Shown here piece after piece: positions 12,301 to 16,397 of a stretch of DNA of 64,000 nt (positions are counted from its first letter, which is position 1; the number at the start of each line of letters is the position of its first letter). The notes under the pieces are model-generated. The model ran no database searches. It was not told the origin of the DNA and saw only the letters and a list, made by a program, of their open reading frames with translations. Origin of the DNA: Halobacillus litoralis (GTDB lineage: Bacteria > Bacillota > Bacilli > Bacillales > Halobacillaceae); contig NZ_CP026118.1 of assembly GCF_004101865.1 (NCBI RefSeq), positions 3,861,001 to 3,925,000 of the forward strand. The letters are read 5' to 3'. Made by a program: the position numbers and the translations under genes.

Positions 12301-13179
12301 GTGCAATTATCGGAATATTTGAACCAAAAACGCCGATTAATTAATGAACAGCTGAAACTCTATGTGCGGGATTATTCCGTACCCGGAAGAATCCAGGATG
12401 CCATGATGTATTCTATCGAAGCGGGAGGTAAACGTCTTCGGCCGATTTTACTTATGGCTACGGCGGAAGCTTTTGGGGCTGATGAGCAAAAAGCAATAGG
12501 GGTGGCTTCCAGTCTTGAAATGATTCACACGTATTCACTTATCCATGATGATTTGCCAGCAATGGATAACGACGATATGCGAAGAGGCATGCCTACAAGT
12601 CATAAGCAGTTCGATGAGGCGACGGCCATTTTAGCTGGTGATGCATTATTGACATTGAGCTCCCAAATAATTGCAGAAGATTCCAGTCTTGATGCTCATG
12701 AGCGGGTATATTTGATTCGCGAACTCTCTAAGGCGAGTGGGGCGACAGGAATGGTCGAAGGGCAAATGCAGGATATGCTGAGCGAAAATAAAAAAGTTTC
12801 CCTGGAACAGCTGGAAAGCATTCATAAGAATAAAACTGGCCAATTATTACGTTTCTCCATTATAGCTGGAGCGTACCTTGGTAAAGCTGCAGGTGATTCT
12901 AAAGAAGAAATCACCAAAATGGCGGAAGCAATTGGGCTCATTTTTCAAATCCAGGATGATATTCTTGATGTTACTGGAGACGCAGATAAAATCGGTAAGC
13001 CGATTGGAAGTGACGAAGACAATCTGAAGAGTACCTATCCGCAACTGTTGGGAGTGGAAGGGGCTAAGAAACAAAAAGAGAAATATGTCTTGACGGCCCA
13101 GGAATCTTTGAAAAATGCCGGCGTCGAAGGGACTTATCTTTCTGCATTAATCGATTATCTCAGCAGCCGTGATTACTGA
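12301..13179 (+). CDS. ispA: Farnesyl/geranyl diphosphate synthase
   Basis: A 292-residue short-chain isoprenyl diphosphate synthase. The first Asp-rich motif is DDLPAMDNDDMRRG and the second is DDILDVTGD; GGKRLRP supplies the diphosphate-binding residues. It condenses IPP with DMAPP and GPP. It begins with GTG behind GAGGAAGAG at the end of xseB. The OLE RNA starts about 50 bases after its stop. Confidence 0.96.
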   Translation: MQLSEYLNQKRRLINEQLKLYVRDYSVPGRIQDAMMYSIEAGGKRLRPILLMATAEAFGADEQKAIGVASSLEMIHTYSLIHDDLPAMDNDDMRRGMPTSHKQFDEATAILAGDALLTLSSQIIAEDSSLDAHERVYLIRELSKASGATGMVEGQMQDMLSENKKVSLEQLESIHKNKTGQLLRFSIIAGAYLGKAAGDSKEEITKMAEAIGLIFQIQDDILDVTGDADKIGKPIGSDEDNLKSTYPQLLGVEGAKKQKEKYVLTAQESLKNAGVEGTYLSALIDYLSSRDY

Positions 13180-13193
13180 TTAGAATGTTTCGA

Positions 13194-13222
13194 TTGAGGA
13201 CGACATTATAATATGATATATT
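13194..13222 (+). promoter_or_regulatory. Promoter for OLE RNA / oapA-dxs
   Basis: TTGAGG (13194-13199), a 17-base spacer and TATATT (13217-13222), with TGA directly before the -10 (extended -10). A start near 13229 would place the OLE RNA 5' end at the first conserved paired region. Read-through from ispA is also possible. Confidence 0.6.
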
Positions 13223-13228
13223 AGGATT

Positions 13229-13820
13229 ACAAAAGGAATGGTGCAGTATTCTAGTCGGCCCTCCGTTCCTGAAGGCGGGCCTAAAAATCCGCCAAAGGGC
13301 ATATCGATGAAGTTCCTTGTGTTGGCTTGAGGCGCCCAGCCTTGGGTCGATGCTGGGAGTTAAGGTCGCAGGGCGATCCACAAAGGCATGTGGGCGTTGA
13401 CCCTGCTTCCGCGGAGGCCCATTCTTGTGATGGTATCTGAGCCAGATACCGTTATGAAATGGGGTATGAACCTGCAGCATATGGAGTAACATCTATATGC
13501 GCAGCGTAGCCTGCCTTGAGTGGTTTTTGAGGGGATTATAGTCATTGAACACCAAGCAGCTTCAGATGGCCACTGAGGTGCTGGTGCGTAAACTATATGA
13601 AATCAATACTGCAAAAGAGGCTAAGGAACGGTTAAAGGCTGTCGGGGAAATCCCCTAGACTGTTCAGAAATGGACATGGAATAAGAATTATAGTGTGGAC
13701 TAAGTGGCAATCTAGTCCAACTTTCGGAAACGGAGTTGAGTCGAGTTTAAAGGGGAACCGCCAGAGTGGTGACACTCGGTACTCGATTGGGAAAACCTAC
13801 TAGACCTAAGCCGCAATTTT
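13229..13820 (+). ncRNA. OLE RNA (ornate, large, extremophilic)
   Basis: About 590 bases without coding potential but rich in GC helices and GNRA-like loops in an otherwise AT-leaning region, for example the stem 13432-13439 with 13443-13450. Position identifies it: OLE RNAs of about 600 nt lie between isoprenoid genes of extremophilic Firmicutes, next to the gene for their membrane partner OapA, here immediately downstream. The known RNA forms an abundant membrane-bound complex linked to Mg2+, cold and alcohol stress in Bacillus halodurans. The ends are inferred: the 5' end from the promoter and the 3' end from loss of structure near AAGCCGCAATTTTT. No strong terminator follows. Confidence 0.88.
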
Positions 13821-13886
13821 TACTTGTTCCATGACCATTCCTTTCGAATACATACATTCCTTAATTTTAAGATATAGAGGTAAAGA

Positions 13887-14486
13887 ATGGACAATAAATT
13901 AAAAAGAGCTGTACAATTCAGTTTAAGTATTGCCGTTATCACATTTGTGTTAGCGGCTATTTTTTCAGTTATATCTTCTTCCGTATTGAGCGGGGTCATT
14001 TGGATTTTCGGCCTCGTCATTGTATTCATCATCGTTTTTACAGGTGTGGTTTTTGACATGCTCGGTATTGCGGCTACGGCTGCTCAAGAGAAGCCGTTTC
14101 ACGCGATGGCATCTGAAAAAGTGCCTGGTGCCAAGGAAGCGATTGCTATTGTCAGAAATGCAGACCGATTCGCAAGTTTCTGTAACGACGTTATCGGGGA
14201 TATATCTGGTATAGTGAGTGGGACGGCTTCTGCAGTCGTCGTCATTCAGCTGGCCAACAGTTTCGGTTACAGTGACGGATCTACCGTTCAAATCGTCATT
14301 TCTGTAGCCCTGACAAGTATTGTGGCGGCTTTGACGGTCGGAGGGAAAGCGCTGGGGAAATATTTTGCTATTCATTCATCAACGAAGATCATCTTTTTTG
14401 CCGCTAAAGTAATCTCATGGTTAGAAAAAAGGCTGAAAGTAAGAATAGTAACAAGTGCCGCGACATCCACAAAAAAATCAAGATAA
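13887..14486 (+). CDS. oapA: OLE-associated membrane protein OapA
   Basis: A 199-residue protein with about four membrane segments (roughly residues 9-30, 33-57, 115-135 and 140-160) and basic stretches at both ends (MDNKLKRA; KRLKVRIVT...TKKSR). The loop between the membrane pairs has the ATAAQEKPFHAMASEKVPGAKEA motif, resembling the DUF21-type Mg2+ transporter region. In the characterised system OapA binds OLE RNA and anchors it in the membrane. The weak GAGGT site precedes ATG 13887. It is co-directional with ispA and lies 18 bases before dxs. Confidence 0.88.
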   Translation: MDNKLKRAVQFSLSIAVITFVLAAIFSVISSSVLSGVIWIFGLVIVFIIVFTGVVFDMLGIAATAAQEKPFHAMASEKVPGAKEAIAIVRNADRFASFCNDVIGDISGIVSGTASAVVVIQLANSFGYSDGSTVQIVISVALTSIVAALTVGGKALGKYFAIHSSTKIIFFAAKVISWLEKRLKVRIVTSAATSTKKSR

Positions 14487-14504: not shown

Positions 14505-16397
14505 ATGGATCTGTGTAAAATCAAAGACCCTTCGATACTGAAGGACATGAATATGAATCAACTGGAAGACTTTGCTGAGGAAACGAGACAGTTTCTTATT
14601 GAAAATTTAGCTACGACAGGCGGACACTTAGGTGCGAACCTTGGTGTAGTGGAACTTACATTGGCCTTGCACAAAGTGTACAAGAGCCCTGAAGACCGAT
14701 TTTTATGGGATGTCGGACATCAATCCTATATTCATAAAATTTTGACGGGCCGCGGCGGTAAATTCGATACGCTACGCCAATACCAGGGTTTGTGCGGATT
14801 CCCGAAACGGGATGAAAGTGAACATGATATTTGGGAAACAGGACATAGTTCAACATCCCTGTCAGCTGCGATGGGAATGGCTATCGCCCGTGATTTGAAG
14901 AAAGAAGATCATTCGATTTTACCGATTATCGGTGATGGTGCTTTGACAGGTGGAATGGCCTTAGAAGCGCTCAACCACATCGGCCATGAGAAAAAAAATG
15001 TAACCGTTATCCTCAATGATAATGAAATGTCAATTGCTAAAAACGTGGGAGCATTGCACGGAGCACTCGGACGTATGAGAAGTGCAGGAAAATACAACAG
15101 AGCGAAAGATGATCTTGAATGGTTATTGAAAAAAATACCGGCAGTCGGAGGCAAAATTGCTCAAGCGGCTGAGCGTCTGAAAGATAGCATGAAGTATTTT
15201 GTTGTGCCGGGTATGTTTTTCGAAGAACTTGGGTTCACCTATTACGGTCCGGTTGATGGCCACGATTTCAATGATTTGATTGAGAACTTGAACTATGCGA
15301 AAAAGACGGACGGGCCGGTAATCGTCCACGTCATGACTAAAAAAGGAAAAGGATACCACCCAGCCGAAACCGATGTGAAGGATAAATGGCATGGAGTAGG
15401 ACCTTATAAGATCGAGTCTGGAGAAAAGATTAAACCAGCGGATGCTCCACCTGCATGGAGTTCTGTCATCAGTGATGCCTTAAGAGTGGAGGCGCGTCAG
15501 GATGATCGGATTGTAGCTGTTACACCTGCTATGATTCTCGGCTCGAAGTTAGAGAAGTTCGGGGAAGAGTTCCCGGATCGTTTGTATGATGTGGGAATCG
15601 CAGAACAGCATGCGACCACTTTGTCTGCAGGTTTAGCTACCCAAGGTATGAAACCGTTTTTAGCCATCTATTCCACGTTTTTACAACGGGGATATGATCA
15701 AGTGATCCACGATGTCGCCAGGCAAAAATTGAATGTCACATTCGGTATCGATCGTGCGGGTCTCGTCGGTGCGGATGGGGAGACCCATCAGGGAGTTTTT
15801 GACGTAGCGTTTCTAAGATCCGTACCCAATATGATCATCTCAATGCCGAAGGATGAAAATGAGGCGCAGCATCTTGTACACACAGCAACACAGTATGATG
15901 ATGGTCCATTCGCCATCCGCTACCCGCGCGGAAACGCAAAAGGTGTCGAGTCAGATCAGAAACTACAAACGATTCCCATCGGCAGCTGGGACGTGCTCAA
16001 AGAAGGTTCCGATGCTGTTGTTTTGACATTCGGTACTACCATTGACATGGCATTGGAAGCAAGTGAGCGCATGGAAAAAGAGGGACGTTCTGTCCGGGTC
16101 GTAAATGCACGCTTCATTAAACCATTGGATGATAGCATGTTGCACGATATTATGAAAGAAGGCCTTCCGATTTTGACAGTGGAAGAAGCTGTGTTACAAG
16201 GTGGTTTTGGCTCAAGTGTCTTGGAATTTGCTGAAGAAAACAGCTATACCTCCCAGTGGGTGAAACGCATGGGGATTCCTGACCGGTTCATTGAACATGG
16301 CAGTGTACCTAAGCTTTGGGAAGAAATCGGTTTGACAGCTGAAAATATGGTTCACTATTTGAAAGAAATGACACCGACTAAGAGGCAAAGGGCTTAA
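14505..16397 (+). CDS. dxs: 1-deoxy-D-xylulose-5-phosphate synthase
   Basis: A 630-residue ThDP enzyme making DXP from pyruvate and glyceraldehyde 3-phosphate, the first step of the MEP isoprenoid pathway. N-terminal [14 protein letters not shown], the ThDP motif [35 protein letters not shown], and the C-terminal pyrimidine-binding domain with [16 protein letters not shown] are visible. AAGGGGGT precedes the ATG. Its products feed ispA, encoded just upstream of the OLE RNA. Confidence 0.97.

Follow-up and report, generated by a model that had tools for sequence, protein, structure and literature searches.

The 64,000-nucleotide stretch of the Halobacillus litoralis genome analysed here (NZ_CP026118.1, positions 3,861,001 to 3,925,000 of the forward strand; hereafter, the window) carries an intact, full-length OLE RNA followed by oapA, the gene for its membrane partner. 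We consider it probable (roughly 0.85) that a sigma-A-type promoter of its own drives this RNA, with additional transcription within the surrounding operon also likely, and that the RNA works as the published OLE-OapA particle. What was observed comprises the complete conserved structure, the dimer loops and the promoter, an intact oapA whose product is predicted to fold like CNNM proteins, and the genes for OapB, OapC and bS21. The find itself is ordinary and consistent with published OLE biology, and the window copy is no new kind of element. New beside the main question are a short OLE RNA in a genome with oapC missing between rpoC and rpsL, OapA-like paralogues encoded at a distance from OLE, and the finding that a proposed anti-Shine-Dalgarno copy within the RNA is poorly conserved. 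To our knowledge, few bacterial RNAs that are conserved but have no known biochemical act are as large as OLE.

An earlier note, made from the letters of the window, had proposed that a structured non-coding block of about 600 bases and a four-helix membrane protein, set between ispA and dxs, reproduce the OLE/oapA arrangement. The covariance search with the Rfam OLE model (RF01071; gathering score, 50), which the note had suggested, was performed and gave a significant full-length match on the plus strand (506.4 bits, E = 1.4e-145, model positions 1-616 of 616), so that the block is confirmed as OLE together with the adjoining oapA. OLE was the sole Rfam family at or above the gathering score across the 64 kb, and one OLE match was found in the whole host genome. 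As for the start assigned to the element (13194), a promoter-like -35 box begins there and the RNA model begins at 13222. By score, the window copy is a standard full-length member of the known class (the cut-off for full-length OLE in the literature, 390 bits, belongs to another model version; PMC11332333), and its description as another natural variant was overstated. The suggested stress-adapted host is a reading drawn from the relatives, which are Halobacillus.

The OLE of Halalkalibacterium halodurans, also full-length and with oapA downstream, shares with the window copy the whole model, the operon setting, an own promoter, the dimer loops and the partner genes; the window copy differs from it by ordinary sequence divergence, by CCUGCU in place of CCUCCU in P6, and by the presence of two MpfA-type transporters in the host. 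Variants 1 and 2 (Fernando and Breaker 2024, PMC11332333) belong to the same RNA class. As the variants are described in that text, variant 1 has a short P7-P9 and often misses the OapB site, and variant 2 is without P7 and P8; the parts reduced or missing in them are all present in the window copy. The GTDB-wide survey in the same paper gives 2,822 Bacillota genomes with OLE; PMC10898510 was drawn on as a further source. No paper naming both OLE RNA and Halobacillus was found in the literature search.

For the comparison of structure, the 80 named loci retrieved via OapA were joined by others from additional genomes, and the resulting 118 OLE loci were reduced to 93 distinct sequences, with 25 identical copies excluded from the counts; the other distinct sequences were 72-94% identical to the window OLE. 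The Rfam structure was transferred from the window onto the 93 sequences, and the same structure with the partners slid by 1-3 bases served as the control. Standard pairs occupied 94.4% of the cells in the Rfam helices (40.2-44.0% when slid), and changes on both sides were seen at 94 of 157 pairs (41-56 when slid). Because pairing and double changes far exceed the slid controls, the conservation of the OLE helices is not due to chance. The helix names used on the window OLE are our own mapping. P3, which is absent from the Rfam structure line, was drawn anew as nine pairs with a three-base bulge; it was paired in 99.9% of cells and yields almost no covariation, since it hardly varies. In domain 2, the helices at 13739-13788 and 13760-13780 were paired in 99.5% and 97.0% of cells, respectively; the corresponding values were 89.5% for P8 and 78.1% for the outer P9 arm, where the loop is poorly aligned. 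The L4 loop reads CCUAAAAAU in 88 of the sequences and GCUAAAAAU in the other 5, and L5, L6 and the core of L9.3 are invariant (Table 1). In the cryo-EM structures described in PMC12286853, the L4, L5-L6 and L9.3 loops join two OLE RNAs, L5 of one chain pairing with L6 of the other. Judged by their sequences, all published dimer loops appear to be kept in the window OLE and its relatives.

Of the 93 related loci, 82 have an extended -10 element upstream of OLE (against a mean of 3.6 and a maximum of 8 in 100 shuffles), and 58 combine it with a TTGA-type -35 element (shuffles: mean 0.1, maximum 1), at a spacing of 17 bases in 55 and 18 bases in 3. An own promoter besides operon transcription is also described for the H. 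halodurans OLE (PMC9723947). In the window, xseA, xseB and ispA lie upstream of OLE, and dxs, tlyA, argR and recN downstream of oapA; the position between the isoprenoid genes ispA and dxs, as had been claimed, was borne out for both flanks by profile matches.

The 199-residue protein encoded after OLE is, as judged from its sequence and predicted model, OapA. The DxxxD motif was invariant in 81/81 OapA sequences, and the four long membrane helices named in the earlier note adopt a CNNM-like fold in the model, in which residues 37-183 match CNNM transmembrane domains best. This model was built from an alignment of 29 sequences; an earlier one (42 close homologues; predicted local distance difference test score, 61.1) was too poor for searching. 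The profile search that the note had suggested gave a mixed outcome: no NCBIfam model matched the protein, and CNNM (PF01595), the sole Pfam match, scored 24.7 bits, below its cut-off of 28.4, with the DxxxD motif present. The weak similarity to CNNM has already been published, and PF01595 matched 18 of 29 OapA family members at E <= 0.01. CBS and CorC_HlyC domains were not found in OapA, nor was any PDB sequence like it at E <= 10. Among named relatives, the closest come from Halobacillus species, with identity reaching 91%, or 92% over 188 residues. The CNNM/CorC (MpfA) Mg2+ transporters probably share the transmembrane fold with OapA, which differs from them by an extra N-terminal helix, DxxxD and the lack of CBS/CorC domains; MpfA works without a known RNA.

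The genes for the partners of the OLE ribonucleoprotein are all encoded in the host genome. That for OapB lies between map and infA (PDB 7k9b, "OLE-associated protein B", E = 2.4e-31), that for OapC between rpoC and rpsL (PDB 3v7e, E = 2.2e-21), and a bS21 gene is present, as is a YlxQ-like L7Ae paralogue. From their sequences, we take these partners to be OapB/YbzG, OapC/YbxF and bS21.

OLE was found in 21/22 genomes of the genus, 43/44 of the family and 126/199 drawn from the order, the single miss in genus and family being an assembly of about 1000 contigs with 6% contamination (G018). In the order search, at most four candidates were scored per genome under strict filters, by which a second, diverged OLE could be missed. 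OapA was found in the identical 126 of the 199 genomes, in agreement with the near-perfect pairing of OLE and OapA already published. In the phylum, the OapA search gave an OapA-type match in 289/398 genomes drawn, and OLE was found in 80/80 named loci retrieved via OapA. All 80 loci had ispA upstream, and dxs was found downstream in 54. Viral spread was also considered and rejected: 12 viral-contig stretches matched a peptide pattern, and none encoded an OapA relative.

Table 1. Features of the OLE/oapA locus in the window and of loci used for comparison (positions without an identifier are those of the window; fractions refer to the 93 distinct OLE sequences).
Feature	Position	Strand	Evidence or remark
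Promoter	13194..13222	+	TTGAGG, 17-base spacer, TATATT, TG before -10
OLE RNA	13222..13854	+	RF01071, 506.4 bits
P3/P3.1, 5' strand	13243..13254	+	partner 13655-13663
P3/P3.1, 3' strand	13655..13663	+	partner 13243-13254
L4, A-rich dimer loop	13280..13288	+	CCTAAAAAT 88/93, GCTAAAAAT 5/93
L5 loop	13334..13338	+	GCCCA, 93/93
P6 arm, published bS21 region	13364..13410	+	paired in 78.9% of cells; 7 of 9 pairs standard in the window
L6 loop	13383-13388	+	AAGGCA, 93/93
L9.3, self-complementary kissing loop	13567..13572	+	UGGCCA; core GGCC 93/93
Domain 2 stem, taken as OapB site	13739..13788	+	P12.2/P13 region (our own names)
ispA, farnesyl diphosphate synthase, upstream neighbour	12301..13179	+	NF045485, 388 bits
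oapA, 199 aa	13887..14486	+	open reading frame, DxxxD, predicted CNNM-like fold
oapA DxxxD codons	14187-14201	+	D101 and D105
dxs, downstream neighbour	14505..16397	+	TIGR00204, 911.8 bits
Host MpfA-type proteins	G000:C1:522072-522650 (L118) and 1414545-1415072 (L119)		CBS + CorC domains found
Short OLE of G159	L130 3144-3632 (G159:C1)	-	253.3 bits
rpoC-rpsL gap of G159	L175 11372-11632		261 bases
OapA-like paralogues	L125 5373-5957, L126 5191-5808, L127 5285-5914, L128 5043-5675	+	away from OLE
OapA-like paralogue	L129 4923-5595	-	split frame, away from OLE
OapA-like paralogue	L149		away from OLE

By analogy with the H. halodurans and Clostridium work, two OLE RNAs would pair through L4, L5-L6 and L9.3, and OapA would anchor the RNA to the membrane next to P3. 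The P5/P6 region may be where OapC and bS21 act, and domain 2 where OapB does, as in the published particle. Under stress from cold, alcohol, high Mg2+ or a poor carbon source, the particle could then adjust the balance of metal ions, energy and membrane, a function that would overlap with that of the all-protein MpfA transporters.

Several observations weigh against this functional reading of the window copy. P3 as drawn has nine pairs, whereas PMC12265935 describes about 12. P6 was paired in just 78.9% of cells, with 7 of its 9 pairs standard in the window. For the bS21 site, which lies in P6, PMC12054373 proposes an anti-Shine-Dalgarno copy (CCUCCU in H. halodurans); this copy is exact in 1/93 related OLE RNAs, and the window has CCUGCU (region 13398-13412). 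On the other hand, the G-C pairs formed by 13371-13373 with 13401-13403 are invariant across the 93 sequences; in the mutants described in PMC12054373, an altered mimic sequence with pairing kept still bound bS21, whereas inverted conserved G-C pairs did not. The invariant pairs seen here are presumably those inverted in the mutants, and the poor conservation of the copy together with the invariant pairs fits the mutant results. The comparison makes it less likely that the bS21 site is an "anti-Shine-Dalgarno mimic" in the literal sense. Finally, the host has two CNNM-CBS-CorC (MpfA-type) proteins beside OLE-OapA. Such transporters are a proposed functional stand-in for OLE-OapA, and OLE hosts are reported typically to have at most one (PMC11332333).

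Because two MpfA-type proteins coexist with it, OLE may be partly redundant in this host. A stronger form of this idea, in which OLE-OapA is present but largely redundant since the two transporters do the same work, draws on the same pair of proteins and on the order, in which at least two strong CNNM matches (counted as domains at E <= 1e-20; CBS and CorC domains were checked for the host's two) occur in 84/126 OLE-positive genomes. We regard it as unlikely, as the OLE structure, partners and promoter show no decay and OLE is nearly universal in the family. The published trade-off is reproduced in number: strong CNNM matches averaged 2.06 in OLE-positive and 3.25 in OLE-negative genomes of the order (Mann-Whitney p = 1.7e-11, relatedness not corrected), and none or one was found in 42/126 OLE-positive and 0/73 OLE-negative genomes. 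Wholly OLE-positive families (25) averaged 1.78 matches and wholly OLE-negative ones (9) 3.17 (p = 0.0005); the contrast was not significant within the 13 mixed families (6 lower, 4 higher, 3 equal; p = 0.084). Coexistence is common in the order, and with OLE-OapA and two MpfA-type transporters in one host the proposed equivalence becomes testable in one cell. Another explanation is that the block is mainly a cis-acting element, a large structured leader that controls oapA and dxs, and not a free particle. OLE ends 32 bases before oapA, and no terminator-like site was found between the two on the plus strand, so read-through is likely. However, conservation extends to the loops by which one RNA chain pairs with another, and in H. 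halodurans OLE exists as an abundant RNA in its own right, about 630 nt long (PMC9723947). A leader role for dxs is also not general, because dxs was not found within the examined flank in 26 of the 80 named loci; taken together, a mainly cis-acting element seems improbable, more so than redundancy. That the block is a group II intron, another RNA or a coding remnant was considered and rejected as having practically no chance of being correct: OLE alone exceeds the Rfam gathering score, the pairs covary, and the open reading frames overlapping the block are short, lie on the minus strand only and give no support for a coding remnant. The working OLE-OapA particle remains the preferred reading.

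The lowest-scoring of the 126 OLE matches in the order, 489 bases long with 253.3 bits (next lowest, 456.6), came from one genome (G159). Its alignment shows that P8 and P5, the latter together with its flank, are absent, that P7 is shorter and that P6 is reduced to a small hairpin lacking L6; what is kept comprises the P3 strands, L4, the UGGCCA loop and domain 2. An extended -10 promoter precedes this OLE, its oapA is open (201 aa), the flanks are ispA and dxs, and an OapB gene lies before infA (product 57% identical to the host OapB). No open reading frame in the rpoC-rpsL region resembles oapC, and the gene was not found by tblastn with the host OapC over the 20 kb containing rpsL and the next 100 kb (120 kb of 3.16 Mb, in a genome 83% complete). 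In losing P5, L6 and P8, the G159 RNA is unlike variants 1 and 2 as they are described in the text of PMC11332333, the only paper given by the literature search on this point; the phrase "lacking P5" does not occur in PMC12054373. We tentatively suggest, at somewhat less than even odds, that the P5/P6 arm (OapC kink-turn, bS21 site and L5-L6 dimer bridge) forms a module that can be shed, its protein partner disappearing with it. G159 is a single case, the evidence is thin and an assembly fault is possible. If the suggestion were true, the minimal particle would consist of OapA with P3, the L4/L9.3 dimer and domain 2, and OapC/bS21 would be an added regulatory layer. With the short OLE, the question of which parts of the RNA are indispensable can be approached through a natural example.

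Among 397 genomes drawn from the order, a second OapA-like protein of another subtype was found in 6 of 226 OapA-positive genomes (G075, G118, G192, G199, G205 and G683), with the frame open in five and split in G075. An ordinary OapA match was also present in all six, and OLE was confirmed in five (G683 was outside the OLE search). Four translated paralogues were 44-48% identical to the window OapA and kept DxxxD, with no Pfam match at E <= 0.01. At the five loci scanned (L125-L129, Rfam E <= 0.1), no OLE was found within about 5 kb of the paralogue. In the main text of PMC11332333, "paralog" is applied to MpfA and YbxF only, and no further paper on OapA paralogues was found in the literature search. 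As a separate observation on the ordinary gene, oapA is split into two reading frames beside a full-scoring OLE in two genomes (G216:C9:94712-95282 and G145:C95:79151-79721), owing to either decay or sequencing error.
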